Origin: Cladopsammia gracilis
Taxonomy: Eukaryota > Cnidaria > Anthozoa > Scleractinia > Dendrophylliidae
Length of the DNA stretch: 64,000 nt
Assembly (NCBI GenBank): GCA_022457155.1
Contig: JAJGOT010000051.1
Coordinates: 1,332,501 to 1,396,500, forward strand
Direction of reading: 5' to 3'
Shown piece after piece: positions 28,410-57,000 of the stretch. How positions within the stretch are numbered: position 1 is the stretch's first letter; the number at the start of each line of letters is the position of its first letter. A program made the position numbers and the translations under genes. Under the pieces are notes generated by a model that was not told where the DNA came from, ran no database searches, and saw nothing but the letters and a program-made list of their open reading frames with translations.

Positions 28410-29400
28410 GTTTGACTTTTAAACATTCAGTTTGTTTTCCTCCGCCGGTAAAGTTATAAAAACTTAAAGTGGGTGATAGCTGGTAAACTGAAAATCGACA
28501 TAGAGTCTAGCGATGTAGTGGCTATTAAAATGTAGCGGCTATCAAAATGAACATTGTGGATTTTAATGATGTAACAAGCGCTTTTGATACTCCGCAATTT
28601 TATTGAGTATATCAAAATCCTATAAGGTATTTACAATTGTTTAAAATGTTCAGCTATAGTATCCACAGCTTTGATGGTTTAGTGGTTTAGACACTGCGTT
28701 GTGGCCGCAGTAACCCAGGTTCGAGTCCTGGTCAAGGCATGTTGTTTTGATCTATGTTTGTATAAGATATCAGTGTGTTGTGCTTGTTTTGAAGTGAGTT
28801 GTTTTCGCTCATTAATCGTATTGTTTTGTGCCGCTCTCGTTTCCCGTCGTAGCCTGCAAATCAGGCGTATTTGGGGAGCGAACGAGCGCTGCGTTGTAAA
28901 AACCGCAGACTAAGGCGAATCAAAAGATGCGACCAAGGTTGTGGGAGTCAGGATAGAATTTCGTTCCTTGTTCCCATCTGATGGATAAAAACTTAACAAT
29001 GTCACAAAAAAATGAAGAATATAGAAATGATAACTTGATCTCTCACGTTCAAAGTTCAACCTTCTGAAGTGTGGCCGCTCAGAAAAATTAACTCGGCTAT
29101 TTCTTTACAAACACCTTTTCACCGAGTTATTTTTTTATGGAATTTTAACCAGGTTACTAAAAAAAAATAACCCAGCTAACTCACCAAGTGCGGCTGCAGC
29201 CATTATCATATGAAAAGAAATGACTTGGCATCTCATTCGAATGCAGGAAGGCACTTATTAGTATGCAGGAAGACAAAATTAGTATGCAGAAATCCAAGTT
29301 AGTATGCAGAATAACACAAAAGGTATAGGTAGTTGACGTCATGAAAAGGGAATCCGTTCATTAATATTCATTTATTAAACAGGGTAATACACGGAATCCA
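28410..29400. repeat. Right arm of a large inverted duplication
   Basis: Inverted match to 21430-21960: GACATAGAGTCTAGCGATG, the tRNA-His with its flanks (GCATGTTGTTTTGATCTATG) and TAGTTGACGTCATGAAAAGG. Extra sequence inside this arm includes several copies of TTAGTATGCAG (29258-29305). Confidence 0.7.
28668..28739 (+). tRNA. tRNA-His (GTG)
   Basis: The 72-nt cloverleaf has acceptor GCTTTGA/TCAAGGC (fully paired with one G-T), D arm GTTTAGTGGTTTAGAC and anticodon stem CTGCG/CGCAG with loop TTGTGGC (anticodon GTG). A 4-nt variable loop and T arm CCAGG-TTCGAGT-CCTGG follow. It decodes histidine codons. It lies in a duplicated block but its own structure is intact. Confidence 0.85.
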
Positions 29401-29883
29401 GGGGAATGCCTTCAAAAGGTTAACTCTGATCCTATACTACTTCCTTGCCTTCATTCTCGCCTGAAATCGAAAATCAAGCATGGTAGTGATAATCATGGCA
29501 GCTGAGCGATAGGGCACCATTTTGTTTTCAACTTCAGATTTCAAAGTTACCCAGCCTAGTTTATTTGTATTTTCGCAGATGTGAACCGAAACATAATTGC
29601 ATAAAATTGAACGGGTGTATTATAGTCTAAATTATACTTCAGTTGAATATAATTCAGGTTTACTGTGAACACGGCTTTAGACTCGCTCGTCAGATTCGCT
29701 TCGATTCGCTCGGACAAAGGGCTACTGTTCGAAAAGTCGGGTTTTTACTGAAAATTCTTTTGTTGACTAATTTTCCTTATCTATTTGATAAAAGCAATTT
29801 TCATGTTTTACTTCCTTACCGACACAGCACCACAGTTTCTTTAGAAACTAACCCCTTTATTCTTTTAAAATTTTTAATTTCAG
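29401..29883. other. Upstream region of the VWA/TSP1 gene
   Basis: AT-rich; should hold the promoter or an upstream non-coding exon. The start-codon exon is preceded by an acceptor-like TTTTTAATTTCAG ending at 29883, which suggests a 5' UTR intron. No TATA box or initiator could be assigned. Confidence 0.35.
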
Positions 29884-29889
29884 GTGAAC

Positions 29890-29941
29890 ATGGCTCGAAA
29901 TGTGCCATTTGTTGCCCTCGTGGTACTGGCTTCATTATACG
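29890..29941 (+). CDS. VWA/TSP1 gene exon 1: signal peptide
   Basis: ATG followed by a hydrophobic core (VPFVALVVLASLYG) and donor G|GTGCGT, phase 1. With exon 2 it reads into AVNGSVV, a plausible signal-peptidase site after residue 20-22. Assignment to this gene rests on matching phase and the secretory nature of the downstream domains; the intron to exon 2 is about 9.5 kb. Confidence 0.65.
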
Positions 29942-32900
29942 GTGCGTATAACACTAATAGGCCATTTGCACGATGACGTCATTTGACTACTACTACCAGA
30001 ATTCATTTCGTTTTTCCTTTCTTATTTAAATTTTGTAATCCCAGTGCGGTTTAAATAACAATAGCCCTAATTTGCACTACAAAACAAAAAACTGAAGGAT
30101 TCTAGTAGTAGTAGTCAAATGACGTCATCGTGCAAATGGCCTATTATTACTTCAACAGTTGGTTTTATCAACTGAGCTGATAAGAAAAATTGACCATCGT
30201 AAACAAAATTACTGAGAAAGCTGACGTTTCGATCGCTAGCCCTTCGTAAGAGTGAATCAAGGAATTGTTAGTTGTGTGTGGTTTATATATCGAACGTTGG
30301 AGCAACGCTATTGTTGGAAACATGGAAACGTGAAAACCAAGAATAAATTAGTTGAAGATAAAGAGATGAAGGTGAATTTTTGTTCTAGATTTTTGCGGCT
30401 TTCCGTGTTGCCCTAGTGCAGGGAAAGGTCACTTACATTAGCGACTACTTTTATCAAAATAAGTCATTACTACACACCAGAATAAGGTTACATTTGTACA
30501 TATATACATATTTGATAGCGGAGCACTCGCCGGGCCGAACCGGCTGCGCAGCGCCTTACTCATAGAACCTATGCCCGTCATTTTTCATGGTCATGGCTAG
30601 CGGAATGTTTCGCGGGCGCGCCTTCGTGACATAGTCCGTCTCACGGATACTGGCGCCATTTTGAATAATTTCCTTTCGCAAAGGAGTATGGGTCAAAAAG
30701 GGGGCATTAAAATCCAAGATGGCGTCGCAAAGTGAACACGGTTGCGTGAGTGAGGTTGAAACCCGAAATATTTTTAAATCATGGGGAGTCGAAAAGCATA
30801 AGTCCTTTTTAATAGCGAGGGAAGTTCCCGTCGGAACCACAAATAAAGAAGGTTTGATCAATCTCGCCGTGTTTGCCCAAAAATTAGGTTTGAAACCACA
30901 AAAAACCGTTATCGAGTGCCAGGTGGAAGTAGATCGTGAGAGGATGGCTAAGTTACGGCTGGAGGAGGGACGGATCATTCTTCCTGACCCCGATACGTTA
31001 CACGAAGGATGGGAAGACAGTTCGGCAAGCTATCCCAGTTTGTCTCAAATAAATGCTGAGAAATATTGGAATGAAAGTGAGTAAATAATTTGTCACGAGC
31101 TTTCTCAGTCTTTCTGAGCCTGACTTTAATACCGGTCTACGGATCTAGCCTTCTTTTGAATACCAGTCATTTCAAGTTTTAAATATCGCGAAAGAATTTT
31201 TTTCGCGCTTTATAGCAAGAAATTAATCCAAGGTATGTAAAGGAGTATATCAAATATATGGGACTACAGTTCAGTGGAAACACTTTATTATATCGCAAAA
31301 ACCTTGCAAGCCTTGCGGATTAAGATTTTGGCAAAAATAAACGTCAACAGACCTCTTTAGCTTGTTTGTTATGTTTTCCCAATGTAGGTCATGTGATGCT
31401 CTCAAGGGATTTTCGCAAATTATGCATACATTCCCGGGGGGGGGGGGGGGGGGGAATACGTGCATCTGTTTGATATCTTTTGAAAGGCGCTTTTTATAAT
31501 ACTTAAATGGCAGATTTCCCTACTCTTTTTTATACTCCAACTCGTATTTTCGCTACCCTTTCTTATTCTTCGTGAAATCTCTACCCTTTTATACACTTCA
31601 ACTCGTGAAATCCTGACCCTTTCATATACCTCCAGCCTCAAAAAGGATAGTCTTTCTGGCGGAGCATCCCCGTATAGCTCATTATAGAGAGTACCCCCCT
31701 CCCCCCCGGGGCATACATATGCACGTGAAGAAAGCAAAATTTAAAAGAAACAGTTCTCTAGGGTAACATCACATGATCTACATTGGGAAAAAAACATACA
31801 AGCTAAAGAGGTCCATTGACAGTTTACGGGGCGGCGGAGCCGGGGAGCTTTAGCGCCTCCCTCCCCACCCCGAGCATTTCCAAGCCTCTAGGGCCTCCTA
31901 GATTTCAATTTTTTCTCGGGTCGCTTTCAAGCCTCCCTCCCCCCCACCCCAAATTGAAATTACGCTCAACCGTCGCCGTAACAAGCTCAAATTGTAGCGA
32001 ATCAGGGGGATAAATGGGTCCTATGATGCTGAGTTCTGCACCTGCGCATGTCTCGGCCGAGCTTCGTTTTTGTGGGGCTTTGTTATCTGTGGGCTTCCTC
32101 TGTGACCTTGGGGTAATGTATTGATGCTTTTTCCCATTTCTTTCCCCCCCCCTTTTTTTTTCCATCCATACATGATATAGCTCTCCTCTTCCTTGGTCCT
32201 TTTGTTTATCCAAGCTCTGTTTCCTCATCTTCATCATTCATTGGTGCTATGATTCTATTTCTATAATAGAGTCAATCCGGTGGGCTTTGGTTATGTGTGT
32301 CTTACCCTTGGTATGACTGGGGCTGTGGTCTTGGGGTTCTGTATTTATGCATTTGTCTCAAATAAATCATCTCCTTGCATTTCTGCATGTCTCCTTGGTT
32401 GTGACGGATGGTCCTATGATGCTGAGTTCTGCATCTGTGCATGTCTCGGTCGAGTTGCGTTTCTGTGGGGCTTTGTTTTCTGGGGACTTTCTTCATGACC
32501 TTGGGGTAATGTAATGATGCTTTTCCCGTTCTTTCCCCCTTTTTTCTTCCATGCATAATTTAGCTCTCCATTTCCGTGGTGTTTTGTCTGTCCAGGCTCT
32601 GATTCCTCATCTCCATTGTTCAATGGTGCTATGGTTCTATTTCCTCAATGGAATCAGTCTAGAGGGCTTTGGTTTTGTGAGTCTTACCCTGGGTATGACT
32701 TGTACTATGGTCTTGGGGTTCTATATCTATGTATTTTGTCCCAAATAAAGAATTATAATTAGCTGATGTTATTCCACAGGTTAGCGTATTACAAACCGCT
32801 CAATTTTAAACTTCAATATATCCTATACTAGGGAAATTCGGCTGTTAACCACACCCTGACGTGGACAATTTGACACGGACGTTTAGCAGGGATTTAAAAT

Positions 32901-35900
32901 GTGACAAGGTCGACATGTGAACATAATTATGGTTGAATTGTCAGATAGGAGAAATTAAACCTGTTTGAGAGGCAATAGTACCTACAGGCATTTAAAAGAG
33001 ATTGTTACAGTTCTTCTTGATACGCGCTGTTGGAGTTCACAGGTAAATCTGAAACTACATTTCATAAAACTTTGCACGGCCGACGGGTGGGAATGCACAA
33101 GCCAAATATTCGGGGGATGTAGACGTTTTATATCAATTGGTGCATTATTAGTTATTTTGTTGTAACAATTACAATGCAAACAGGTTTAACTTATCAGAAA
33201 TTAGTTGTTAGTGCTTATCAGGTTATCTGTTAGATTACTGACGTTGGCTTATCTTAAGAGACTACATATGAATTAATTTATGTAAGGATTTTAGGCGTGT
33301 ATGATCTATAAAGAGACATTAACCATTAATATTGCAAATGAAAACTTACTGAATAACGAATAATAATTAGAGAGGTATATGTTATTGGCATTGTCTTCAT
33401 TTGCATCAAGCAACTACATTTCTGATCAAAACTTGTCAGTGTGCAAGTAAGGCTAAGCTTTATGTGTTTGTCTGCGTGGGACAATTGATTCACACGATAC
33501 GAGTTTAATAAAATTTATTCTCAGTAGAAGCAAAATTAAATTTGTGTTGTGGCAGATGTGCGTCTGCAATAACTACAAACACAAAGTAAAGGTTTTCAAA
33601 CGGTATCAATTACTCTGTTAATCAATAAATGCAGTAATCCATTCAACTTTCTTGCCACATGAATCGTGTTCACGAGTGGCTTTACAAAAACTTACAGACA
33701 ACTTATATCCGCTAGTTTTAATTGTAGCGAAAAATCATACCTGTCAAGTTTTCTTCGACTATTAGAACAACCATAAACTGCACAATAATCCCCTCCTCCC
33801 ATTATTTCATTGGACTTCCCTGAGTCTAAAAAGGCGCCGAGGTTTTCTTTTCCAGTCTCACTATGTGCTTTTTCGTGCCGCCATCTTGGATTAATGCCCC
33901 CTTTTTGACCCATAACCCTTTGCGCAAGTAAATTATTCAAAATGGCGCCGATATCCGTAAAACGGACTATGTGTCGGTGCGTCTGAGCGTCACGCAAGGC
34001 AAACTCGCGGGCGCGTATGACGTCGCAAAACATGCGCTTCTGACGCAACACGCGCGGCTACAGAGCCGAAAAGTTGGATCTTTCGCAGTGTTTAGCGGAG
34101 CAGTAAAGTCGTTATTTCCCTGCATTTTTTCGCGGTTTGCTACTCAAGACAGGAATACCAATTAAGGGATACTCAGAAGCCACTTTAGGGGAAAAAGAAG
34201 AGCTTTCAGAGATAAAATCTTGCTTCGATTCACACGTTTTTATCAATGCAGGAGTAATGCGGGGAGATGCCTTGTTTTTATTACGGATTTCAGAACCGAA
34301 GAAGCGGAGTTTTAACGAATTTCCAAGCAGTCCAGTGACTTAAAGGTAAAATAAATCAAATTTTTCCGATGGGAATTTATGTTGATATCAATTTTTGATT
34401 GACGTTTCCTTTGTGTTCCACTTAAGTTTTGGAGACCTGTTTATAAAACGTGCTCAAATTATTAAAGTCGTGTTGTTATCTTGAATTTCATCGAGGACAG
34501 ATCTGCCTTGATGCGCTATAAATGGTGTGTTTTGCTTTTAAACATAAACAAATGGAGATTTTAATACATTTTTTTGAAAGAAGGTTGTGTTGTCCATTTT
34601 TATGTGTTTGTTCATTCATAACATAGATTGAAAAGCGATTTTATGTAAACAAAACAAGACTTAGATTTTCTGTCTTCACTCGCGTCGCCTTATGCAAATA
34701 TGTTTGTGTATTTTTGCAATTTTGATTTCCAAATCAGTTTCTCGGGAAATTTTTGACAAACAAAACCTGTATTTTATTCGGAAAGTAGTCGTACTAGTTA
34801 TTCTAGACAGAGAAAAGTTGTTTTTGTGAACTTTTGTACGGTCTAAATGTACCGTGCAGACGGTCGGGTAATACTGTTTTTGAGAATTGCTAAAATTGAA
34901 AAATAGCTCGGTCGTCAATCTTAATTCTTGTGCTTCCGACCTTTCACCTTAGTTAAGTTTCACCTTAGTTAAGCTTGTTCAAAGTGCTACGCAGTTAGGC
35001 TCAGTCTATATATATTAATCCTAGCAGTCGAAAGACTATACAGGATATTAAGAAGCGGTCAAAGCGGGGGAAAAAAAAATTGAAAAAATGGCGCCCTATC
35101 GCGTAGCTGTCATGATTATCACCACCATGCTTGATTTCAGGCGAGAATAAAGGCAAGGAAAGCTGCCGAGACTAGAAGAAGAAAAATCCGCCGTTGCAAA
35201 TTGCTTGCTTTAGGTTGTTAACTTAAATACTGCACTTTTGTGCACTTCTTAAGTACCCATCATCGGCCATTCCTTGGCTTTTGTCCCATACGGGTTTTTT
35301 GTTGTGCATAGTGTTTAACTCGTTTTGCACCGCCTCTTCGCTCCGTAAGGTGATTAAAAGTTCCGTCAACCGGTTCCCTAACGACAACAAAAACAATTTA
35401 TTCTTTGTACAACAAGAGTTGCCTTGGGTGATTTGGTTTGCCCTGCAAATAGCTGGAAAGCTAATCGTGGCGGGCAAAACAAGTACATGAATAACTCAAA
35501 TTATCTAATAAGATCAAGAACCTTATACTATTACAAAGCCTTGCAGATTGCACTAAAAATAAATAAAACACAGAAGTTAAGTGGTCTAATTAACACAGGG
35601 CTTACTGACGTACAATGCGTTAAGACAAGGAGTCTCTGACTATAGCAAGTGTATCTATGTACCTACTTTATTAATAATCATGGGAATTTGAATATAGTCA
35701 TCCTCCTTTTCTAAAATATCAAATAGCAATTTGCGGAGAACTCTTTTGAAAGCATTCTTAGGAAGATCCGTTATATAGCATGGTATCTTATTCCACAGCT
35801 TTACTCAGAGCCGCGAGAAAGAATTGTTTAGTATTTCTAGTCTGGAACTTTTAACATAGAACTTTCCAAACGTAGACGATCGTGTATTGTATGGGTGAAT

Positions 35901-38900
35901 ATTAGACGTTTTCTGAAATAAATTGAACATGTTTGCTGGGGCTTTATCATTATTTCAGTAATATCATACATTAATGTTGATACAGACTCAGAATAAAGAA
36001 AAGTTATTGGAAGCACATTAGCTTCGAGAAATAAAGGAATTGCATGGTCATGCCAGTCTGCGAAGTACAGCAAACGAAGAGCTCTTTTCTGAAGAATTAG
36101 AATTTTGTTAAGATAGGTCTTGCATGCCTGACCCCAGGCAGCAAGACCATAGGTTAAATAAGGATGAATTAGTGACTTCTAGATATTCAGTAGTATTGGT
36201 CGAGGTACAGAGTGGCGTAGCTTTGCAATTAACCCAACATTTTTACTAATGTTTGTATCAATAGAATCAATGTGGTATTTCCAAGAGAGATTCTGATCAA
36301 TAAGAACGCTCAAGTATTTTATGTAAACTTTAGATTCGAGATTAACAAATTTATTCTTTTCATTATCAAACATGAAAAGTTTTGGTTGGTAAGCAAGTCG
36401 CTTTAATTTGATAAGGACGAAAAATTACAAAGTTGGATTTGTCAATATTAAGAGTTAGTTTATTGGCTGTCAGCCAGTTATAAAGGTTTTGTAGCTCATT
36501 GTTGACTGCTGACTCAAGATCTTTCAGATTTTTGTCCACATACAGAATGTTTGTGTCGTCTGCAAAGAGGTAAAACCTAAATTTATTCGAGCATCTGTGA
36601 ATATCGTTGACATATACCAAGAAAAGCAGTGGTCCAAGAATTGATCCACATCTAACGACAGCTTTATCGGATATATGATGGCCTACTTGCGTTCTTTGTG
36701 TACGATTTTTGAGATATGAGGAGAACCAATCATTAATTATTCCACGAAAGCCATAGAGCTTATCAAGCAAAATATCATGATCGACGGTGTCAAAGGCTTT
36801 TTTTAAGATCAATAAATACTCCACAAGATATCAATCGCTGATTCATGTTAGTCTGTATATCATTAACAATGTCCAGTATTGCGTGTTGGGTTGAATGTCT
36901 CTTAATTACGAAAGCCGTTCTGCGAGGAATACAAAAGTTCGTGTTTCTTTATACAGTTCGTCAATCTGTTGTAAATTATTTTCTCAAATACTCAATTGAA
37001 ATTTGAAAGTAAAGAAATAGGTCTGTAGTTGTTTGCATCCGTATCATCATCATTCTTAAATACTGGGGCAACTTTGAGCTTTGATGGATAAGTCCCTAAT
37101 CTGATAGATGTATTGAAGTATCTCTGTAAGAACAGGAGCTATGACGGCACTTGAACATTTTAGTAATTTGGTAGGTGAGGAGTATAAACCATAGAATTTA
37201 TCATTCGGTACAAGTAATATTTCTGACCATAATTGTTCGGGTAACTTTGACATATGCAGTCCAAGAATTGTATTTCTTTATCTTTTTGTCTAAGCTTTAC
37301 AACTGAATCTCCCTAAGCGACCACCCAAAATACAAAGCCAAGGTCGTCGCTTACGAGAGGTCAGACAACCGGGGCTTTTAACCATGAACCTATAGTAATC
37401 TCAATGTACAACACCTATCAGTGCAAAATATTATATCACATTGAAGTTTTGATGAAAGGGACAAAATGTTTGTTTTATTGGACTTGTACTGCAACACGTT
37501 ATTACTCATACGCAAAGCGCAATGAGTTAAAAAATGCTCTTCGTTTTTTTATTATCGTTTTGTTTCACGATTTTGCATGCATATTTATGCACGCATATTT
37601 TAAATTGTGCACTTCCGGTTCATTGCTTTGCCATTTACACTTCCTGTTTAGTGACTTCCGGCTACTCTCACTTCCGATAAAACAGTGTTACTGAAGTGTC
37701 ACGACAGCGTCTCCTAAAACCCTACTTACATTACTAATGTTCACGACAGGTATATATAAGACTTAGACGAATCACTGGCTTCATTGTGGTACAGTAAAAA
37801 CTTGGAAGGACTTTTTCTATTCTTTTAGCGATAGTTTTAGTGAGAATTTCATAGTCAGTTTTTAGGAGTGAAATGGGCCTTAGATTGTCGAGAATCCTTT
37901 TGTCTTTTCTCTTTTTGGGAATGAGCGAGATTATTCCACGTCTTTGGCTAATAGATAATGTGCTTTGTTGAAAAGCGTAGTTCAACCCATTGACGCCCGC
38001 GACTGTTTTCGTTTTTGAGTGATTTTCTGTATATAAACGATCCATAGGATTTCGTGACTCCATATTTGGGGTTACCATTGAAAGAGTTGCTGTTCCAAAA
38101 CACTGAAGGCTCGAGTTTACCGGAAACGTCATTGTGACGTTGTCATTTTGCTTCGTTCGTTCTCAATAAAGGCTTCAATATCATGTATCTACGATTTTTG
38201 GTAAGTTCTCAGCCATTTTTCATCTTTAGTAGCTGCCTGATGAGCATCATTAAGTTTGAAGGTAGTTCAGAGTCCACTTTCTCAATGAAGCGAGTTAGGT
38301 GTTGTACTTCGTTTACGAATTTAGCTCGTTGCTCGTTGAACTGGACAATTTGCCGCAATGAAACGAAGTTGCTTTGGGACTTGACTCTGTACGGCATATT
38401 TTGGAAGTTGCGATTACTGAAGAATACAACAAGCGCGAAATTTCGGCGGTGGGTTGGAGTGGCTGTGGACTTAGTATAAATATGAAATGTGTGAGGAAAG
38501 AAACGAACGCTGTCAAAAATTGTGGCTGTTTCCCAGCATGCATTGCGGTGGTGATATTGAAAATTGAGGCAAGGTCAGTATGCATTAGAACGAGAAGCTG
38601 TAGCTCGGCCCGAGCAACGAATAAGAGCAAAAACATTCACTGCTAAGCTAGGACTAGGACTGAATTTTGCTGTGAATGTTGACTTTTGGGTTTGCCATGA
38701 TGATTTGAATAAAAAAACTAAAGGCAAAAACGTGATTTTTGTTGTTTTTCTATGACGTTAAAAACGGTCATTTTTGTTATTGTCCAAATTCAAACGCTGA
38801 TGTTCTGCAAAAATCGCTAACTTTTTTGTGTTTTTTGGGTATCTCAATTTGAAGGACTTTCTAGTCAATGCTCTCAACTGATAGTGAAGGCAATGGTCGC

Positions 38901-39266
38901 GCGATTGAGAAAGTTGAATTTTTTTAAAGCGGTGGAGTAATGTACGGCCGGTTTTGGCCGGCACGGCTGTCAATGGGTGAAGCTAGCAAGCAAATCATCA
39001 ATAATTTCAGGCCAGAAAAAGAGGTAGAATTCAACCGGGAGACCATCAGTACCAGGAGTTATACTGTTGCTAAAGTCCAATAGTGCTTTAACACATTCGG
39101 CTTTTGAGATTAACCCTTCACACGAATTTTTTTCTGCTACATTAAGCGGTGTGATATTTTCTTGTTTAATAAAGGGAGAATTTTTAAACTTATTATGATG
39201 TTATGATACGGCTTAATTGAAAATCATTTTTTATTATTGATGAATGTAATACCGTATTAAAATAAA

Positions 39267-39302
<36 letters not shown>

Positions 39303-42300
39303 ACACATGCAAGAGCTCGCCAATACCGGAAGTCAACTGGTTTATTCCCTCCCTAATGGAATTATCAAAGCGACTCTGGTTGAGGCAGTGACTTTAATTT
39401 GTATCTCAAGTTTTAATTTAGATATTTAACTTTGACATATACAATCCAAGAATTGTATTTCTTTTTCTTTTTGTCTAGGAGCTGTTAACGGATCAGTTGT
39501 TAACGGACAAGAAGTTGGTAAGTAAGTGATCAGTTAACGCGTCGAAGTCTTGAAACAATACAAGCTTACGGTTGAATCTCCCTAAGCGACCACCCAAAAT
39601 GCAAAGCCAAGGTCGTCGCTTACGGGAGGTGGTCGCTTACGAGAGGTCAGACAACAGGGGCTTTTAACTACGAACCTATAGTAATCTCAATGTACAAAAC
39701 ACCTATCAGTGCAAAACATTATATCACATTGAAGTTTTGATGAAAGGGACGAAATGTTTGTTTTATTGGACTTGTACTGCAACACGTTATTACTCATGCG
39801 CAAAGCGCAATGAGTTAAAAAATGCCCATCCTTTTTCTTTTTTTCTTTTCATTATTGTAAATATTATTTTTGTGTCACGATTTTGCATGCAAATTTATGC
39901 ACGCATATTTTAAATTGTGCGCTTTCGGTTCATAGCTTCCTGTTTAGTGACTTCCAGCTGCTCTCACTTCCGATAAAACAGCATTACTGAACTGTCACGA
40001 CAGCGTCTCCTACAACCCTACTTACATTACTAATGTTCACGTTAGACATATATAACACTCAGAAGAATCACTGGCGTGATTGTGGTACAGCCTTCATTTA
40101 CAAAACATTTAATAGTAAAGTGATTTGCAGGAACGACGACTGAATGAAAGGAGTAACTCTTCTCCATGTCGGACATCTTCTTATCATGTTTAACCCTATC
40201 CAGACCAGGCTTTTTTTGACCATCTGGGACCGGGGGTGGGGGGGGGGGGGGGGGCTCCAGAAGCTCCCCGCCATGTAACTTTGAAACCGCCTATGCTATT
40301 GCCACCAAGTTTACACAGGATAATGTTGTCATGAATTCTAGTAACTACAGATACTTTGGTGTCATAATGACGTAACGTGAAGTCATTATGACGTCACATA
40401 GTCGATTTTATTGGCTAAAACAGTCTCAATATTTTTATCAATTTTGATAAAAGTATTATGTTTACTAACACTGTTGGTGTTGTTTACAATAACAATGACG
40501 TCATTATGACGTCATATACAATGAAATAACCAACTGAAACGTTCTATAAGGCATATCTCTGAAACAAACGGTAGCGTTCATACCATACTTTCACATATTG
40601 ATGCAGGAGTAAAAGTTAATGAATTCGTAAACTTTGTTGCTATGGTAACAGCATGTGACGTCATAGAAGTGATGTGTACATTTTCTTAAAAAGTGGAACA
40701 GTTAACTTTGCAAATTATGGCTTTTCATGCATGCACTCGCGACAACACAAAAAGCTTTCTCAAGTGAAAAGGACATTTTTGTGATATTTTGACAATAAAT
40801 GTTAAGAGAAAATGGAAAAACACAGACAGGTAATATATTAGAAATAAAATTCCCATTTTATTGTCCGCCATCTTGGATCCGTCATCTTGAATTAGCCCAA
40901 ACGTGTTCATTTAGGTAAAAAACACCGACAAACAATGCAACTGGACTGCTAAAGCTCAGTTTATTGTGGGCAAATGTTGAAAATTACAGAGAGAAACGAC
41001 TTTTAGTAAAACTTCGATCCGCCATCCCGGATTTTGACATTTCATATTCCACATTTTCCTAAAATTACCGTTAATTAACCTTAATTACTAAACAATTATA
41101 CATAATTTGATTAATTATCGTTAAATTAAGTGGAAACTATTAATTCAATAAGAAAACTTTGAAATAATCTTGATTAAAGCGAAAAATGCTAATTTTGTAA
41201 AACATAGGTGTCAAAAAGCGGTTGCTATGGAAACGTCAATGTTGGTGAACAAAGGACGGTAACGTGAAACCAAATTTGGTGGTCATTGCTTCGACCGTTT
41301 TGAAACGACACAACTGCAAAGTTCGAGCGTGCTCCAAAAGCCCCCCCCCCCCCCCCCCCTCCGGTCTGGATAGAATATATCATAAAAATTTCTTACGCAT
41401 GCGCAGTTTCACGTTGATCTGACTTGGAAAAGACCACTTAAAAGGCGATTGAAGAATGTACGTATGGTCTCCAGAAAACTGTATACCAAAGGATAATAAC
41501 AACACTAAAATTCAATTCGCCATCGTTGAATGTGGTCGCGGTCACTTACTAAAGGTTAAAAGCAATAAAATCAGAAAACGGCAAACTGATCCTTACGGCA
41601 AGGCGATGAAGAAGTAAATAAAAGAATAAAACAAAATTTATATATATATTAAAACGAATCTGCCCAAAAAGCAATAGATGGGGAGGCAGCGTGGTCGAGT
41701 GGTCTGGGCGCCGCATTTGAAACCTGGAGGTCCCGGGTTCAAGTCCCGCTCTGACCGCTAGCTGGAGTTGTTTCACGGTAGACCCGAGTTCAACTCCTTG
41801 GCCACGCTAGTAAAATAGCCAACTGGTCTGCCTCCTATCAGTTGGGATTTTTAACATGTTATCTTAATCTTTATCATAAACAACATTTACATTTACAAAC
41901 ATTTAAATTTACATAGAAAAATTCAAATCACCAGCGCTGACAGTGGTCGCGGCCACTACGAGAGGTGGTCGTTTACGGGAGGTGTGGAGTATCGTGATGT
42001 GACTGGGCGAAATTTAGTATTTGGAGGTTCGACTGTATTGTAAAATTATCTATATAAAGAATGTCTGTTTTAAGGACAAAACATGTTTTATACAAATTAT
42101 ATTTTGGAATAGGAGTTGTTAATGGAGAAGTTGCTGCCAGACAAGTAGCTGGTAAGTAAGTGATCAGTTAAGGTGTCGTGGTCATGAAACCATATACATT
42201 ATTTTGATTGTATTGTATTATATTGTATTGTAAATGAATAATTTTTGTTTAACGATAAAACATGTCTCATAAAAACGAAGTCATACGTACACACAGGTCT

Positions 42301-44175
42301 TGACTTTGATGTTTTTGGTTTTGATGTTTTCTGGTTTCTTTGATGAAAAGGTAGTTGAGTATGCAGAGTTTTAAAGAGCAAAGTTTCCTCTAAAGGACGC
42401 ATAAATTGCTTTGGCAGCTGATGAAACATATTTAGCTTTAGCAGCCTCTGTAGAGTGTAGGCGCGCTGTGGCCTAGTGGTTAGCCCGCTGGATTTGAACC
42501 TTAATCGGTGGTTGTTCCATTAGACAAGAAAATTTACTCTATATTGCCTCTCTCCACCCAGATGTATAAATCGGTACCAACGAACAAAATCCCGGGGGGG
42601 GGGGGAGGTTACCTTGTGATGAATCTGAGAATCCCATCCAGAAGAGAGTAGTAATACTCTCAGTAGCTTGATGCTACAGAGACTCCCATGAAGGCTTTAC
42701 CTTACCTATATATTTATGAATTTGGTTTAACAAACAGTTAATGATGCGCGTGGTTACATAAATGTTAACCCAAAACAGACACGAGCTGGCTTTGTTTACT
42801 ACGAATGCTTCAAAAACTCTCTTGGTTTTTTTTTTTAATAAAATAACGCAAACAATATTATATATCATGATATATCCGTATCTTAATCGTAGACGGCTAT
42901 CCAAACAAACTTTCCGTTGAAAGTCCAAATTCAGTAAATATATTTTATAAGTGCCTTTGTTTTGCAGAAAGTGCATGCGAAAAAGGCATCGATCTGGGGA
43001 TTATAGTGGACAGGTCAAAAAGCGTCGGAAAGCAAAACTACATAAAAGTGAAGGAAGCCTTGAAGAGTTTCGTGGACAACTTTAACATCACCCCGGAGGC
43101 AACTCACACTTCTCTCATCTTGTATGCTGATGTGGCAAAACACTTGTATAACCTGAGTGATTCGGCATACCACAGCAATGAAGCCGTCAAGAGAAAAATC
43201 GATTCTGTTTCAAACAAGCTTATCTACGCCACACGAACAGATTTGGCACTGATGAAGGCACATGATGAGTTGTTCAATCACGGACACGATAGGAAAAGAA
43301 ATCCGAATGTACTTGTGGTATTTACCGATGGAAAAACTGCTTCGTCTTCAGCACCCTACAGTGAGACAGTTCCACCTCTTGAGGTAGGACGCTCATGTCA
43401 GTCAGCTGATTTACTGCTTAACTAGAAAGCAGCTCAATTTAAAACATGACGAAAAGCAACAAATTGCAACTGCCAATGCACATTCGACAGTTCGACATTC
43501 GTTAATCTTAGTAAGTCACCACCATTACTCTGTCCATCAAGTCGTGAACTCATTTGCCGTTTAGGAAAAATGTTAACGATAAAGAAACCGACTTAACTTC
43601 CAACTACTGGTTGACAATATGTATATAAATAAATAAACAATATATAGATTGCTTCAATTGTTCTATGAGTGCTCTATGCACAGATATGCAGAGCAAAATA
43701 CAAATGTAAGGGCGGAAAGTTGTAACTCGAGTTTCACGCACTAAGCGATCAACCGATCAACCGATGACTCTGATGATTGCATAGTGCGTGAAACTCGAAT
43801 TACAACTTTCCGATCTTACATTTGTATACAATTAACAAAAACGTTTCTGTTTCGGTGGTGGGAATGTTCATAAATGAATAAATGTCCAGAATATTCAGTG
43901 GAACATAATCGATGTCTACCGGTAACACCGGAATACGTGCGATTAATGATGAAATCTTTCACCAGAGGTTAGAAACCGAGTATAATAATTCAAACAGACA
44001 TTATTTTTACTAAGGAATTTTAATGTTAGTGTAAAACTGTAAATATTTTAGAAATTAGTTATTAGACTTTTTTTTAGTTCTTCTTACTTTTAAGTTCTTA
44101 GTTTAGGTGTCACCAATTAGCTCAATTAAAAAATTGATTTAGAAAGTTTTCTGATACATGAATAAAGTTGATTGA

Positions 44176-44213
<38 letters not shown>

Positions 44214-47200
44214 AAAACGCGTTATCTTGCAAGAGAAGATCACTTACGAGAGAGGTTGCCACCATATCTATTTATCTACTTTTTATATCTTTGTGTCTAT
44301 CTTTTATTTTTGAAAAGGACAAAGGCGTAAATATTATTGCGGTTGGTATTGGCAAAGGAATTAAAAAATCAGAACTGGAACAAATTGCTGGGGAACGTGG
44401 CTCCGTGGTGCAGGTTGCAGATTTTGATGCCCTCGCTGGAAAACTGGACGACATAGTGGCTGAAGTCTGTGGTAAGTGTTGTCACCATTCTTCTTTATTT
44501 GAAGGATTGCTTCTTGCTTGCATTGTTACCCCTTTCACTTCCCAAAGAGGGCTTTGGTTACTTTTAGGGGTGCCGCGCGCTAAAATAGCGAATTTAATGT
44601 CGTGAAAGTGCGTCAGCAAATTACAAATTTAAGTTATAAAAGAACGAAATGACGCTCAAAAATTACTCAAACACAAACTGATGTCACATTTCGGACATGT
44701 GTAGTTGCTCTTTATTATTATTTTTTCTTTCAACCATGCAATTTCAGACTCGAGAGAAATTTTCTACGTTTAGAAACTCGAAATTCTCTCTCAAAATGAC
44801 AATTTTATTCGCCATATTCGCCATATTCGCCATATTCGCTATTTTAGCGCGCGCTAATACAGTATATTATATATAGCGCGACACCCCTAAAAGTAACCAA
44901 AGCTCAATAGAGCCCAAAATTAAAATTCAAGAAAATTCCAAAATTTCGCTTTGGCATGATATGCATACACTGAAATAGAAACAGGACCATTGAAAAGTAC
45001 CCCTGATGAGTTTTCAGTTGCATGTTCAAACTGTGTGGGTTCTTCCACAGTCAAAAACGTTAGAACCACATTACATGACTCAAGGTTTGACTCTGGGGAT
45101 GAGGGGGTAAAGAGTTAAGTTCCTGATTGACTGACTGATTGACTGATTGACTAACTGACTGACTGACTGATTGACTGTCTGACTAATTGACTGACTGACT
45201 GACTGATTGACTGACTGATTGATTGATTGACTGACTTACTGATTGACTGATTGATTGACTGACTGATTGACTGATTGATTGACTGACTGATTGACTGACT
45301 GATTGATTGACTGACTGACTGACTGACTGATTGACTGACTGATTGATTGATTGACTGACTGACTGACTGATTGCTTGATTGACTGACTGATTGACTGGCT
45401 GACTGATCAACTGACTGACTGACTGACTGATTGACTGACTCACTGACTGGATGATTGACTAACTGACGGACTGATTGATTGATTGATTGACTGTCTGATT
45501 GACTGACTGACTGACAACAACAACAACAACAACAACAATTTATTTACAAATAATAATAAAACAAATTATATTAGCAACCCGCAAATAACTAACTAACTAA
45601 CTAACTGACTAACTGACTGATTGACTGACTGATTGACTGACTGACTGACTGATTGACTGACTGACTGAGTGACTGAGTGACTGACTGACTGAGTGACTGA
45701 CTGACTGACTGACTGACTGACTGACTGACTGACTGTAACTGACTGACTGAGTGAGTGACTGATTGACTGACTGATCAATTGACTTACTTACTTACTGACT
45801 GACTGACTGACCGACCGACCATTATTTATGAGAAACCTGAACTTCTGTCATATATGACAAACTTTAACTTAAAAGCACAGGTTTTGTAAACAAACGCTAA
45901 ATATCACAGCAGCACCCGGAGAGCGTAGCCTGTAGAGGAAAATGGAATAGTTCTACACGGACTTAGGTACTTCCATTTCCTTGGGATAGCTTATTATTTA
46001 AATCGAAGAACATGGTGATGTAAAAAAAATACTAGAAAGCTAGCACAGCACAGTCATAAATTAAATACTTATACAAACTAAACGAAGAATATAGTATACA
46101 TTATACAATATCATTGATAATTAATGCAATGCTACATAATTACAATATGATATATATGTTGTAGTTAATTTTTTATTTCAGGTAATTTTTGTTTTTCCTT
46201 TGTTTTAAATTCATTAGCATATATTACCATACCCAAAAACAATGGAAAAATAAAAATTACCTGAGATAAAAATTAACTACAATATATATAACTCTATGAA
46301 ACAGGAACATTACTTAATTAATTAAATACTAGGTAAATATACAATAACTTGGTGGAAATTATTTTTTCAAGTACGGTTTTAAACGATAGGAAGCAGCAAG
46401 ATTTATTTTCTTTGATTGCGGTGTAGATATAAAATCGTGTCACTATAAATCAAAAATATAACGTACGAAAAAGGCGTTTCTCAGAGTGATGTGCATAGAT
46501 TTTATTTGCATTCGTTAGAGTTACCTTGGACTGACTTACTGTACTACTAACTGTTGTGTTTTCACCGTTATTCTTTGTCTGAATAATTGCTTTCTTGCTT
46601 TAGAAACATAAGGGATTGATTGACTGACAGACTGACTGCCTCACACACTGTAATAAGTGTTCACCGTTCTTCCTTGTTTAAATTATTGCTTTCTTATTCC
46701 TATATTAATTGATTGATAAACTTACTAACTAGTTAAAAAATATAATATGAATTATAATCATGTGTTTGGTCTTTCTGTCTGATTTTTTTCAACATTTTTC
46801 TAGTTATAAACGGTGGTTACACACGTTGGTCTGAATGGTCAGAATGCACTGTTACTTGTGGCAATGGAACCAGAATGCGTTCCAGAAACTGTACAAACCC
46901 GGAACCAATGGGAGGAGGAACAAACTGCGATGAAATAGGACCGCCTGACGAACATGAGGCGTGCATACTTCCAGAATGTGATGAATGTAAGTATGTCAGG
47001 GTGTGTTCTAAGTCATGGTTCTGTTGGTGGTAGGTGCGGTGGTGGAGGTGAAAGTCTTATTTAAGAATAAATAAATGTAATATTGTATTGGCGAAGAAAT
47101 ATGTGTTAATTTGGGCTAATGGTGGTTGTTGTGTGGAAGTGTTATTATTTAAAATAATTTCGACTTAGAAATTTATTTTTAACTAACTCGTTTTTTGTAA

Positions 47201-50200
47201 AACCTTTTCACGTCTGATGAAAGGTTTTGTCTCAGTTCAGATGATCCTGTCGTTGGACGGTGGCGTTAAAACGGCCAATGTAACGGGAATTTATTGTCAT
47301 TTGAAAAAGCCAAAAATATTTTGTATTAACAGAAACCGAACATTTATAGTCCAGGGCCGGGTTGTTCAAGCGCGGTTAAGCTAACCCAAGGTTAGCATCA
47401 ATTTTGATTACAGTTAAATAATTAATCAAAGTAGGCTAGAACGGGCCATGACTTTTTCGTGTTACAAGAGTTGGTTGATTTCTAAAATTATTTCGTTGAT
47501 AAATTAATAAGTAAATGTATTGACCAGAAACGCTCAAAATCCCCGCGACTCTACCCGTTTAAGACGTTTTCCCTGGTCTCCTATACTTTCTCACGGAGTT
47601 TCCGATGTTATGGTCTTTTCCCTTTATGGTTAATTTATTTATTGCCCTTGGCTGAAAGAGTTACGACAATACGACAATATTACCATTACGAAGGCTAAAA
47701 ACTTCTATTTTCAAAGAAAAAGCTTAGTAACTCTGTTAATAAAAGAAGACTTGTGTCTGTTGGTGGGTAACACTCGTGCGTAATTTAAAGTTATACAAGT
47801 GTTCGGCTGGTTTTCATAGGAAACGCTTGCAGGGATGATTTTCTGACCCTAGATCGCATTACGCCTTGTAATACGCATTTGAAGATGTGCATAGAATTTG
47901 TACTATGTAGCAAAATGGGTTACTAATAATTAAGGAACTGTCAATATTTGACGCATGTCATTTATGATTTATGATTCTGCCCCAGGCCCGAACCTATCCT
48001 GGCCTTTGTATGATGACATTCTCATCTTGATGAATACTATGCCGATTATCTTTACATATACTTGAAGATATTACATATTAACCAGTTTGGCAATTTCTTC
48101 ATTTCAGCAATTGACGGAGGCTATTCTCGATGGACTACTTGGACCCAGTGTAGCAAAACCTGTGGTGGAGGAATGCAGATAAGAGTCCGAGCCTGCACTA
48201 ACCCAGCACCGTATCGCGATGGTAAAACATGTGACCACATTGGTGAACCGCAAGAAACAGTTGCGTGTAATACGAAACCATGTAAAGGTATGCAATGTAG
48301 ATAATCTTCATTCAGGCATGTAAAAATGTGAAATAATCATATATGTGAACACTTCGGATGAAATATCAGTGAAATTGATGATCCTCGTAGGAATTTTAGC
48401 TAATTAAGTTACTACAATGAAAAAAAAATCGGACGGATTGGAACCCATGATCTTGCGATTATCGGTTCAGCCCTATATCCACTTAACTATCGAGCCAGTT
48501 AGAGAGCTAACGAAGCATGCTTCCGTAGTTTTCGGATGAAATATCAGTGAAATTGATGATCCTCGTAGGAATTTTAGCTAATTAAGTTACTACAATGAAA
48601 AAAAAACCGGACGGATTGGAACCCATGATCTTGCGATTATCGGTTCAGCCCTATATCCACTTAACTATCGAGCCAGTTAGAGAGCTAACGAAGCATGCTT
48701 CCGTAGTTTACCCCATGATTGAACTGTAACTGTTATTTGCTTTTTATTATTGTTTTTGTATATAAGTTATGTGATTATTATTGTTGTTGTTTTAAGCCTG
48801 GTCCATCACCAAGGTGATCGTGCCATGGTTTGTGACGTAACCCATTGTTTTCGCTTCTTCCAAAACTGGCATACTCCCGGACTGATTATGCAATTATGTG
48901 TTGAAAGATAATGTAAATGAGGTTTTTCTCAATCAATATGCTGTTAAATCATTAGGGAGCTTAAGCAATGACGAGGCCAACGCCAAGGAAAACGTCAATT
49001 GAAAAAAGGATTCGTGCTATTTTAAACTACTTTGCAGTTGTTCCAGTTTGTTTAGTTTGTCTAATGTGACTGGATTGTCCAGGAGCTGAATTTGAAGGGA
49101 TGGCTTTCCGGTTCAAATGAAGAAAGGAAAATTAACCGTCGTGTGTTCACGTTCTCCACAAAACCTATGATTTGATCATTTGACATTGTTGTTTTGCAGG
49201 AAACGGCAAAGAAATGTACGAAAATGTAAAACGCACGTACAGAGGCATTGTTTTCGGTCATTAAACCTATTGTTTTGTGCCGTTCTCGCTGCCGTCGCCG
49301 TCGCGGTTGCTTAAGCTCCCTTGTTTCGGGTCTCGACGGGATTCCAACCTATCACCATTGCGATTCTGGTGGAAAGGCTTTAATACTGACCAGATGGCAG
49401 CTGAAAATCATACATATACAGATAAATCACAGGGAAAAGTGAATGCAAAGTTATAGTATTTCACTAAACCCTGGCAAGGGAAATATAGATAGATATGTAT
49501 ATCCAGTGCCACCATTCATTTAATTTAACTTCTTTTGTGCAATTTGCAGTACTGTCAGCACCATGTGACCAGGGCATTGACCTTGGCATCTTAATCGACC
49601 GTTCAAGAAGCATCTTGAAGAGAAACGTTGCGCGGCTTCTCAAAGTTTTCATGCCATCATTCCTCAGAAAATTCACAATTTCAAAGAGAAAGACCCATAT
49701 TGGTTTAGTAATGTATAGCAAGAACGGAGAACACATTGCCCCTTTTAACGGAAAAAATTCCAAATCTTGGAAAAGGGCGAAGGCTTTCATCGCAGGGCTT
49801 GACCCAACAACTTCTTATCAAACACGAACTGACAAAGGACTGATGATGGCGTACCATTCATTATTTACAAAGAGAAATGGCGACAGGAAAAGGAACCAAA
49901 ACGTCCTCATAACGTTCACGGATGGAAGGGCTTTTCCGAAAAGAAGCATAAGGCCTTTCTCGGAAACGGTGCCTCCACTTAAGGTAGGCCACCAGTCGTT
50001 TTACCATTTTAAGTTGTCTTTAAGGTTACTTAAGAGGCAAGCAAGGTGTCACCAGTTTTATTATCACTTGTGCTCGTGCGGTGAAAGTGTTAATAACCGT
50101 TGTTGCCTAGCAGGTGGGAATATGGATTGCAACTTAAAATATTGAAGCTAAATTTTGAAGTTCTTCCCTCCTGCCTTAGAAAATGACCCAAAACTGATTT

Positions 50201-53200
50201 ATGTTTGTTCTCACTTAGAAGATTATCGCTCGTTTTTCCCTCTCGGTGTTCCGAGAGCAATTCATGTATATTAAACAAAGATACCGTTAATTAGATAAAA
50301 ATACTTAACAGCATTTTCACCACAAAACAGTAAAATACCGACGATGTAGCCTCTTTAACTGCTTTTGGTCCTTCTGTCATCCACTGTTTTCATAAACGTT
50401 TGTTTACAAAGTGGTTTTGAGCCTTTATTCTTTTACTGAAATCGTCGCTTGTTTACACATGCGATTTGAAAATGCAACTTGCGCGCGACAAAATTTGCAA
50501 AAAAATCGCCCGTGTCATCGGGCCTTGAGAAATGATATTGAAATAACTTCTTTGTTTCGTTCGGTCACTAGTCAAAGAAAAAGTGCCACATGGTCGCTGT
50601 TGGATATGGTGTTCCGAGCAGAATCAACATGACGCAACTCCAAGAGATTGGTGGTGATAATGTAGTCAAAGTAATGAAGCCACAACGAGTAAAAAGATTG
50701 GTGAACAAAGTAAAAAAAATGGTCTGCAGTAAGTTATGTTTATTCTTGTCTACTATAAACTTAAAGGAAGTTCGAGCAGACTCTTTTTCTTTAAAGACGG
50801 TGGAGCAGCGTGTGCGCACCCCCTGTTTAGCTTTCGCAATGGCGCGAAAGAGAGGATGCATTAAAATGGCGATATTGCAACTTACAAAGAACTTGTGTCT
50901 GTTAGAATTCCCTATGGCTGTACGAGAGTTGGCATTTCGAAAACGCGCGTCAATTTTCCTCTTCTTTTGGCTAACAGAACGCAAAAAGCGCTCTTTATTG
51001 TTTAAGGAGGAAGGAAATAGGCGATTTTTGTAGGGTTTTCTTATCTAGGTGTATTCTTTTTTCTTTGGCTAATAACAAAGAGAAGGAAATAATGCGCTTT
51101 TATCCCAGATGTAACAATACCCCTTTTAGCCAAGCACATATAAGCTTGTGTGAGCCACAAGCTAGCCGTATTGGTATTTCATTTTTCTCTCTAAAACTCA
51201 TTAATAATTCATAACGAGAACGCAAAGGAAATCACTATAGTGAAGGTGGTTTGGATAACCGGTCTTAATTTGCATAGATTTTGGCGATTTCATTCCTTCG
51301 TTTTCTCCGCATTTAATGATCAGTTTGAGGAGCTACAGCTGTATATCAAACACTCGAAAGAGTGCTTCATCAGGTATCCAAACACCTCGAAGTGGCTCAA
51401 AAAATATTCGGCTGTACCTCGTTTTCAACCCATTTCTCGGTGTTTGGATATCCTGTTAAAACACTCTTCCTCGTGTCTGATATACTATTTCGTTTTCAGA
51501 GGTTGATGGGGGATACTCGAAGTGGAGTATGTGGTCGATGTGCAGTAGCACGTGTGGTGCCGGTGTTAAGGTTCGGAGCAGAGTCTGCAATTCACCTCCG
51601 CCACGAAAAGGCAAGGATTGCACACGATTGGGTAACCCTTACGAAACAGTCGAATGCAACGAGGGCGAATGCTCAACAGGTAGGTTATGGTAGCTATAGT
51701 GCGACAGTTACTGCTTATTAAAGTGCCCCTGTGATCAAATTTTTGATTTTCATTTTTTTACATTTTCGTGTACAATTAGACTTTCTTACTCATCTTGCCA
51801 AATTTCAATTCATTACGAACATCAGAAGTCATTTTATTTTAACATTTATTTCCGAGAATTTACGGCCGCCATTAATCAACCTTATTCCAAGGCTTGGTTG
51901 CGAATGGGAGAAAGTGACGTCAAAGACTCAAACATACCTCACGGGTTGAAATTATAATAACAATAAGTGTTGAAAATCACGCGAAAACCAACAAAAACTT
52001 TGGACTTGTTCTTCGTGCAATTTTCTATGCTGATTGTTATTATAATTACAGTTTTCATGACCAAGTTTTTTTGTCAAAAAGCTCTAAATACTAGTAGCCT
52101 TAATGAGTCAGGAAGATTATCGTTTTGTACTTTTCCATCTAAATGCATACCAGAGCCAACTCCATGTAGCCACAAGAAACTGGACGTTTGCTTGATAGTA
52201 GATGCGTCATTGAGTGTGAGGCTTCCAAACTTTGTGCGCGTGAAGACCTTCCTGATTCAGTTCATCCATCAATTTGATCCTGACACACATTTCAGTATCA
52301 TTACTTTCGCCAAGACTCCGACTGTGCATTGCAAGTTTTCTGACAGTCAGTGTCAGACAACAGATGGCACCCACGATCTCATCTCAGAGATACCCGACAA
52401 GCTTAAGTATGGCACTTTCACCGACAAAGCTTTCGTTGCTGCCGACCAAATTGTCTTCACATCTGAGAATGGCGACAGAGCGGATGCCAACAACCTGGTC
52501 GTGTGTATTACCGATGGCAAGACCATGAAGGGATCTGCGCCTTTTAACGTTACCGTTCCTCCATTGCGGGTTTGTTTTTAAAATTAGTATTTTAAGACAT
52601 CGTTATTGTCATCAGTTCGAGCTTGTCACTAGTTTTAATTATCCTTTTAAAGAGCCAAAAACCTGGCATATCCCAATGTAATTGTTCGCTTTTATGAACA
52701 ATAACTATATCAGTGCCCTGAAACGTTTTCATGCGTGTCGTTGAGTGCAATGTGCGGACCCCAACGGGAATCAAACCCACTCGACCCGCCCAAATGTCTT
52801 CCCACAAGAAGACGCGACGGTTCCGGGAGGGGAGGGGGGGACTCCGATATAAAAATGACGCAGGTCCTCATCGAATTGAGCCGAAAAAAAAAATATGACA
52901 GAATATGTCTTGTGTTGTTTAAAAATGGTACCTCTGAGGGGTAAAAATATATTTGAGCCACGCCTATCAAACGAGATTCTGGTACCTTTTAGGGTGTTTT
53001 TCGAAAATTTCTGACGAGCACCCCCGTCGTTTTTATATGGAAGTCCCCACCCCCGTCACGCCGCGTCGTCTCCTTGTCGGAGACCATTTTCTCGGGCGCT
53101 CGCGTGATCGCCTACCTCCTAAACAACACATATAACAAAGGAGGAAGGGACTGAGGAATGGACAGAAGTCCCAAAACGTCTGAACATTTAGCTTCAAAAG

Positions 53201-53868: not shown

Positions 53869-54720
53869 GCCAACAAATAGGCTCCATGGCTTGTAAGTAT
53901 GTTTGAAAAGACTCAATCAGCTACGATGATTAATTACTACAGGTTAGAAAAATTCTTCGTTTTCGGTTCCTGCGGTGTTTCGCCCTTTACGCCACAAAAT
54001 AATCTTTTCCCCCCTTGTACTTCTTGGCTTGGCTTCACGCACGACGAACAGTTAGGAAGAGTGTCGTTGTTGCCCATGTCTGCTGCTTGGTTTAAGGGTT
54101 GGGGTTAGGGCTAATGACTGGCTGGTCTATGCGTGACAAACATGCTCTGCTACGACGACTGCTGCCGAACGTCCGGTGGAGAGTGGGCACTCAGGTGTCG
54201 TTTTTGTTGTTGCATATTTGTACTTTCAATTTACTTGATTTGCACGTTTTTGCCGTCAGTCTTTAACAACGCAGATAAAAGGTTTATCGCAGAAGGTGTC
54301 GCAGTGGGGTGAGTATTCAAACATAAATAAATACTTCAAGTTGCACTGAGCAACAAGGTCGAACAACCTCAAATGACAGAAGGCGGGCTAGCTGGCTATT
54401 TTTTTTAGCGTTGTTCAGGAGTTAAACTCGGGACGGCCGTAAAACCTAACCGTAACCTCCGCTTGGCGCCCTTGTCAATCGGCCACGCTGCCTTTCTAAG
54501 TAAGTTGACAGTTAAAAATTTACAAATTCTAAAGCAATTCATTACTCGCATTTTCTTGCAGGAAATAAAGCAGAAACAAGGTACAAGGGGTTGATATATC
54601 TCCGCAAGGAAAGAAGGGATCCTGGGGATAAAGTAGACAAAAAACTAGACATTTTACGAAGCATTAACGACAAGGCATTAATATTGATGTATTAACCACA
54701 GGGACAAAATAAAAGCAACG
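53869..54720 (+). other. Probable 3' UTR with spliced non-coding exons and poly(A) signal
   Basis: A donor GTAAGT lies 24 nt after the stop (53893). Exon-like blocks follow at 54260-54308 (CAG acceptor, GTGAGT donor) and from 54562 (TTTCTTGCAG acceptor). AATAAA at 54708-54713 precedes an A-run at 54722. Splicing of the UTR is inferred from signals only. Confidence 0.4.
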
Positions 54721-56860: not shown

Positions 56861-56927
56861 TTATTGTTTCCTTCACATTCTCATTTCCACGAACTACAAC
56901 CTTATCACCTTATACTCCCCCGCGGCC

Positions 56928-57000
56928 TGGTAGCTCAAACGGCAGAGCGACGGAAGATCTAATCCGCAGGTCGTGGGTTCGAAACCTACGGAGGTCAATG
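56928..57000 (+). mobile_element. tRNA-like sequence (SINE head or tRNA pseudogene)
   Basis: GGCCTGGTAGCTCAAACGGC (A box) and GTCGTGGGTTCGAAACCTAC (B box and T arm) give a tRNA-like fold. The anticodon stem has a mismatch and an oversized loop. Not a convincing functional tRNA. Confidence 0.45.

Follow-up and report, generated by a model that had tools for sequence, protein, structure and literature searches.

VWA-TSR proteins are listed among the novel domain architectures of cnidarians (PMC5446238), and a coadhesin with vWFA and FA58C domains is described from a stony coral (PMC8086859). A 'collagen' of S. pistillata has been reinterpreted as coadhesin (PMC7853314), and coadhesin has been tied to calcification rate and to selection at CO2 seeps (PMC8059587, PMC10363134); here and below, statements from the literature refer to the parts of the cited papers that were available. 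Two described Acropora proteins were compared with the product of a predicted gene of the coral Cladopsammia gracilis, located in a 64,000-nucleotide stretch of contig JAJGOT010000051.1 (assembly GCA_022457155.1, positions 1,332,501–1,396,500, forward strand), hereafter the window. The skeletal protein aug_v2a.05945 of A. digitifera resembles the window protein in having three VWA domains and successive TSP-1 repeats, but it is assigned to the transmembrane proteins and carries two further domains, both of type F5/8-C (PMC4890752); neither feature is seen in the window protein. The coadhesin entry of A. millepora, B3EWZ3, covers a fragment of 1675 residues that includes a transmembrane segment (PMC4043741), and the window protein shows no such segment on reading of its sequence. 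Coadhesin in the strict sense (B3EWZ3 and aug_v2a.05945) is another type of gene than the one in the window. Judged from its sequence, the window gene probably (at roughly 75%) encodes a glycoprotein that is secreted for adhesion or as matrix and belongs to the VWA/TSP1 'coadhesin-like' group; its signal-like start is followed by modules in the order VWA-TSP1-TSP1-VWA-TSP1-VWA.

The window holds a real gene of coral type and the gene model is good. Eleven coding exons spanning 29890–53868 on the forward strand join with consistent phases throughout into 795 residues, the stop falling at 53868 (Table 1). Open frames were listed over positions 28000–56500 and the borders of the module exons were then read for AG/GT sites, which resulted in a first model of 10 signal and module exons with AG/GT borders, 782 residues and zero phase conflicts (end phases 1 / 0,1 / 1 / 1 / 0,1 / 1 / 0, stop). 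The database, PDB, Pfam, genome, alignment and profile searches were all run with this 782-residue form. As a gene model it was dropped, because in relatives the stretch from the signal core to VWA1 is longer by 7–8 residues, a segment that is supplied by a microexon.

The first intron was scanned for in-phase microexons of 12–60 nt with a pyrimidine tract of at least 70% and a near-consensus donor. This returned the single site listed in Table 1, with two nested acceptors, the donor GTAAGT and a 94% pyrimidine tract, and the same scan of the reverse strand of the intron gave zero candidates. In 500 Markov shuffles of the intron a mean of 1.6 candidates of any kind was obtained per intron; none of the 500 yielded a candidate starting with GAV, nor one starting with GA with a comparable donor and tract. 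At the microexon position two of the database relatives, P0002 and P0003, read GAV-KGQE in the alignment. The copies of the 15-nt tandem duplication inside the microexon are 80% alike and give rise to a 5-residue duplication near the N-terminus, in which the window protein differs from the relative P0004 and its kin.

A preliminary description of the locus had counted 12 exons and 808 residues without frame conflict. The continuity of the frame was recovered here but not the count, and the 13-residue difference was not located. The start then given, 29884, is the first base after TTTCAG at 29878–29883, just 5' of exon 1, and the end, 54713, closes an AATAAA hexamer, so that one of the 12 exons may be untranslated. 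The same TTTCAG suggests an upstream exon of the 5' untranslated region before exon 1. That hexamer is only a candidate mark of the 3' end of the gene, since a second AATAAA at 54564–54569 lies closer to the stop.

Pfam-A gave three VWA matches, with a whole-protein E of 2.9e-82, and three TSP_1 matches (E 1.9e-32), all far above the cut-offs. Together with nine relatives aligning end to end, these bear out the module order as it had first been described. The metal-ion-dependent adhesion site (MIDAS) was scored as the five residues of the motif DxSxS...T...D, numbered on the 795-residue model. By alignment it is complete in VWA1 (D45, S47, S49, T119, D151), VWA2 (D358, S360, S362, T433, D466) and VWA3 (D615, S617, S619, T686, D719), and each of the three TSP1 repeats has six cysteines and WxxW, the printed count of 7 cysteines for repeat 3 including the next cysteine beyond the repeat. 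The preliminary description was correct on both points, having reported complete metal sites in all three VWA domains and six cysteines with modification motifs in all three repeats. The pattern C-x2-T-C-x2-G, which we take to be the O-fucose motif of TSP1, is visible by eye in the repeats, and eight N-glycosylation sequons are present in the predicted protein. A conserved cysteine stands at both ends of each VWA (C34/C220, C347/C538, C603/C788) and is kept in 10 of 10 aligned rows, with the sole exception of C603, which is missing in P0008. In some VWF A domains a disulphide joins the two ends. On reading of the sequence, the N-terminal start is hydrophobic and signal-peptide-like, and no hydrophobic stretch or membrane segment was seen after VWA3. 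No F5/8 type C domain was among the Pfam-A matches of the protein, whose coding sequence ends at 53868, and a genome search for F5/8-C domains listed no match on the window's contig among the best 150 of 1639 candidates that were scored.

The best PDB sequence match of VWA1 was the Mytilus proximal thread matrix protein 1 (PTMP1, 4cn8), which we take to be a byssus protein of a mollusc, the mussel. PTMP1 has two VWA stretches, and the matched stretches have cysteines at both ends as in the window VWAs; unlike the window protein, it shows no TSP1 match. In apicomplexan TRAP (4hql) and MIC2 (4okr) a VWA is followed by TSP1 as in the window protein, and the alignment spans both modules. The TRAP-family feature of a VWA with MIDAS followed by TSP1 is present in the window protein, and the C-terminal transmembrane domain of that family was not found in it on reading of the sequence. 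The resemblance to TRAP and MIC2 is best described as a likeness of modules, not as family membership.

When 5.8 billion proteins were searched, 254 matched, of which the best 120 were listed. Nine of the listed proteins cover 97–99% of the query. Six of these (P0001–P0004, P0006 and P0008) are 57–65% identical to the window protein over 99% of the query, and the remaining three (P0047, P0051 and P0054) are 37–40% identical; the window protein is thereby closer, end to end, to the six-row group than to the next VWA/TSP1 group. The search listing itself gave 57–64% and 37–39% for the two sets, and the alignment gave 59–64% for the six rows. No further full-length relative was among the matches listed for a paralog query (21 matches) or a profile search (best 120 of 279). 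The full-length relatives named to species are from Acropora palmata (P0004, 788 aa, 'coadhesin-like', same module order), A. cervicornis (P0008, 'Mucin-like protein') and Montipora foliosa (P0054). P0004 and P0008 are identical wherever both have letters, and the nine relatives are therefore not all independent. Compared with the 795-residue model, four of the six close relatives are 7–8 residues shorter, P0003 is 2 longer and P0008, which unlike the window protein is without part of VWA3, is 25 shorter. P0001–P0003, P0006 and P0051 come from the source 'lgn', presumably the Logan assemblies of public reads, where the longest contigs measure 2.6–3.1 kb and carry the frame uninterrupted from end to end. 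Set against the 24 kb that the window gene occupies, these short contigs are most simply read as spliced transcripts joining all modules.

The module order was scanned with module profiles in 137 proteins, comprising 135 fetched proteins, the window protein and the product of a paralog on contig C927 of the same genome. The exact order (VTTVTV, with V for VWA and T for TSP1) was found in 11, namely 9 of the 135 fetched, the window protein and the C927 copy; 10 of these 11 (eight of the nine relatives, the window protein and the C927 copy) had also been used to build the profiles. Both modules occurred in 43 of the 137 proteins, and other orders included VTTTTV, VTTVT and VTTTVT. The order had been called unusual beforehand, which is correct only in part, as other VWA/TSP1 orders are frequent among the fetched relatives and two more such genes are present in the genome. 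The architecture is rare yet not unique, and appears to be one arrangement among those that exon shuffling of symmetric phase 1-1 units can give. In the available parts of the literature on coral skeletal and cnidarian VWA/TSP1 proteins this order is not described. The group already has names in the databases, and the window gene adds a member to an existing kind.

Searching the 878-Mb genome with the window modules, with the best 58 of 1193 candidates scored, gave two best VWA matches outside the window gene, both to VWA2: one on C927 (47%) and one 17.6 kb past the window end on the same contig (C1112) and strand (46%). The C927 copy is a complete paralog of 776 residues with all nine module exons and the exon phases of the window gene, and its protein shares 69% identity with P0047, 66% with P0051 and 58% with P0054. 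The downstream copy on C1112 starts about 16 kb past the stop of the window gene and shows VWA1, TSP1, TSP1, VWA2 and the end of VWA3, the rest, including part of VWA3, being hidden by N. Loss of the third TSP1 and of the first part of VWA3 from this copy was considered and rejected on account of the run of N (an assembly gap or masked stretch) at that place. Both copies are closer to P0047 and P0054 than to the window protein. They differ from each other by 12–36% per module in the seven modules that could be compared and are therefore not alleles. No second haplotype copy of the window gene was found either: elsewhere among the best 58 of 1193 candidates, identities did not exceed 47% for VWA and 56% for TSP1.

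The two copies form a subfamily with P0047, P0051 and P0054 that has the same module order as the window protein, its complete members being 776–796 aa long, and that differs in its metal sites. In P0047, P0051 and P0054 the last MIDAS Asp of VWA1 is replaced by Gly, and in VWA3 the first Asp and the second Ser are replaced by Glu and the Thr is missing, unlike in the window protein; in VWA2 all five residues are kept, as in the window VWA2. On reading, the C927 copy has a similar pattern, and the Gly in VWA1 recurs in the downstream copy. In the window subfamily the MIDAS of VWA1 and VWA2 is complete in 7 of 7 rows and that of VWA3 in 5 of 7, all three being complete in P0001–P0004. In single-module trees of 30 rows each, modules grouped by position for VWA2 (support 100/99), VWA3 (93/87), the first TSP1 (82/94) and the third TSP1 (99/100). 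VWA1 and the second TSP1 did not form one clade each, the VWA3 of P0054 was a long branch, and the tool warned of long branches meeting in the TSP1 tree. With four modules out of six grouping by position irrespective of subfamily, the trees favour a six-module order that would predate the split of the two subfamilies, with caution on account of the long branches.

Table 1. Features of the window gene (window coordinates) and of its two paralogs (locus coordinates).
Feature	Position	Strand	Basis or remark
Exon 1, coding part	29890..29941	+	MARNVPFVALVVLASLY + first base of next codon; signal-peptide-like; aligns with N-termini of relatives
Microexon, 39 nt, phase 1-1	39479..39517	+	reads GAVNGSVVNGQEV; 15-nt tandem duplication inside
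VWA1 first exon (DxSxS, T and D of MIDAS)	42968..43383	+	phase join, Pfam, alignment
VWA1 second exon	44318..44471	+	phase join
TSP1 repeat 1, single symmetric phase 1-1 exon	46804..46986	+	phase join, Pfam, alignment
TSP1 repeat 2, single symmetric phase 1-1 exon	48108..48287	+	phase join, alignment
VWA2 first exon (MIDAS)	49550..49983	+	phase join, alignment
VWA2 second exon	50572..50728	+	phase join
TSP1 repeat 3, single symmetric phase 1-1 exon	51500..51679	+	phase join, alignment
VWA3 first exon (MIDAS)	52154..52569	+	phase join, alignment
VWA3 second exon, short tail NETAPIP, stop TAA	53692..53868	+	relatives end near same place
AATAAA hexamer, candidate polyadenylation signal	54708..54713	+	sequence; farther from stop than another AATAAA
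C927 paralog	L036:9294-9452, L037:1635-9415, L038:1725-3204; signal exon L038:4758-4812		
Downstream copy, C1112	L029:5754-6194, 7922-8062, 9620-9817; L030:1757-1906, 7619-8056, 9400-9564; L031:7138-7293		

Repeats explain part of the gene's span. A reverse-transcriptase fragment (RVT_1, E 5.8e-16) lies in the long first intron at 36366–36830 on the reverse strand, together with a second, weak one at 37734–38162 on the same strand that is below the cut-off. An inverted repeat at 29955–30146, with 78-nt arms that are 82% complementary, starts 13 nt past the end of exon 1 and looks like a small non-autonomous transposon. The reverse strand of 45151–45791 is repetitive, with SVSQ-like repeats in several frames. 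Elsewhere in the window, a 431-aa open frame in one piece at 4591–5886 on the reverse strand matches rhodopsin-type seven-transmembrane receptors (Pfam 7tm_1, E 2.4e-10). Two tRNA-His (GTG) genes lie 7 kb apart on opposite strands (21698–21769, reverse; 28668–28739, forward), and a third tRNA match at 56924–56997 (forward) scored 30.8 against an Rfam cut-off of 29 bits and was not called by ARAGORN. Among the genome matches listed, contigs C38, C289, C1241, C1168 and C1177 carry dense arrays of VWA exons with 17–23 listed matches each, some of them evenly spaced and close to equal in score, as tandem copies would be. About 0.9 Mb away on the window's contig, a further gene gives VWA and TSP1 matches (L039/L040, C1112:2286001–2306000).

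Modules of neighbouring genes could have been wrongly joined over a 24 kb span with internal repeats, in a genome where VWA and TSP1 modules are abundant. Nine other proteins, however, have the same order, several of them encoded on contigs only some 3 kb long, and within this genome the complete C927 paralog repeats both the order and the phases; such an artefact is very unlikely on present evidence. As to function, the preliminary description had proposed a matrix, adhesion or mucus protein with coral skeletal organic matrix as a reasonable hypothesis. The matrix or adhesion class and the coral origin held up, the three species-named relatives being corals and the Acropora ones bearing the names 'coadhesin-like' and 'Mucin-like protein'; a skeletal matrix role in particular gained no support. 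A skeletal organic matrix protein would be secreted by the calicoblastic cells and occluded in the skeleton, and this reading draws on the three VWA domains and successive TSP-1 repeats of aug_v2a.05945 (PMC4890752) and on a coadhesin-like protein common to four coral skeletal proteomes (PMC7115838). In two skeletons, vWF proteins are reported to be more prevalent than any other class of adhesion protein (PMC9532382). The F5/8-C domains and transmembrane class of the A. digitifera protein nevertheless make this known skeletal relative another type of gene, which counts against a skeletal role, and a single TSP-1 and VWA protein is named among 30 A. digitifera skeletal proteins in the available text (PMC4890752), though A. 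palmata has P0004. Occlusion in the skeleton is considered unlikely.

Somewhat better placed, and still only tentative, is a role in the ectoderm, where the protein would be secreted as part of the mucus or of gland granules and would bind microbes or glycans. One source names the A. cervicornis relative 'Mucin-like protein', but this name looks automatic, and no mucin-type Ser/Thr-rich tract was seen on reading the 795 residues. In TRAP, binding to sulphated glycoconjugates is ascribed to a TSP1 motif (PMC5446238), and A90 of A. millepora, a vWA TSP protein in a legend and under another name in the tables, is expressed in scattered ectodermal cells, like A7 (PMC3204972). Recognition of dinoflagellate symbionts by a host protein of this kind appears improbable. 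Cnidarian proteins with TSP1 and VWA are listed in a study whose title has a diverse TSR repertoire promoting symbiont colonisation, but domain abundance and architecture showed no clear pattern by symbiotic state there (PMC5446238), and the literature available in part gave no link of the window subfamily to symbiosis.

Several observations weigh against a secreted adhesive or matrix protein with three working metal sites. RGD and NGR motifs are absent from the predicted protein sequence, and retained MIDAS residues are no proof of metal binding. VWA3 is not always complete in the window subfamily, P0006 having Asn for the last Asp and P0008 being without the stretch. The transcript evidence is indirect, as the contigs come from other sources and could conceivably be intronless copies, and no A. 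millepora transcript could be matched to the window gene.

On the secreted adhesive or matrix reading, a disulphide between the end cysteines would close each VWA (C34-C220, C347-C538, C603-C788) and the MIDAS metal would mediate ligand binding by each VWA. As rigid spacers, the TSP1 repeats would be glycosylated and might themselves bind sulphated glycans, so that one chain could link as many as three ligands in the extracellular matrix or in secreted mucus. The most likely site would be an ectodermal secretion, including that of the larval aboral ectoderm or of gland cells around settlement. In a pre-settlement pool of A. millepora, four matrix proteins have vWA domains and three of these also thrombospondin domains, two of the genes being placed in the aboral ectoderm (PMC3204972), and larval metamorphosis brings a shift in co-adhesins, hemicentins and TSP1 proteins (PMC12960093). 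The published expression of related Acropora genes appears to fit secretion by larval ectoderm or glands at least as well as a skeletal matrix.

What the locus offers is a gene model that has been checked down to its microexon. It describes an extracellular protein, and the full-length relatives that bear species names are all from corals so far. The main point worth testing is that the two subfamilies differ in a testable manner, with three metal sites in one and one in the other. It is a rather remote idea that the window protein is a trivalent linker, that its neighbour of the middle-site-only kind on the same contig serves it as a monovalent cap or partner, and that the pair would set the cross-linking of a secreted coral matrix. 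If either subfamily were found at the border of tissue and skeleton or in settlement secretions, it would provide a handle on how coral tissue adheres to mineral or substrate.
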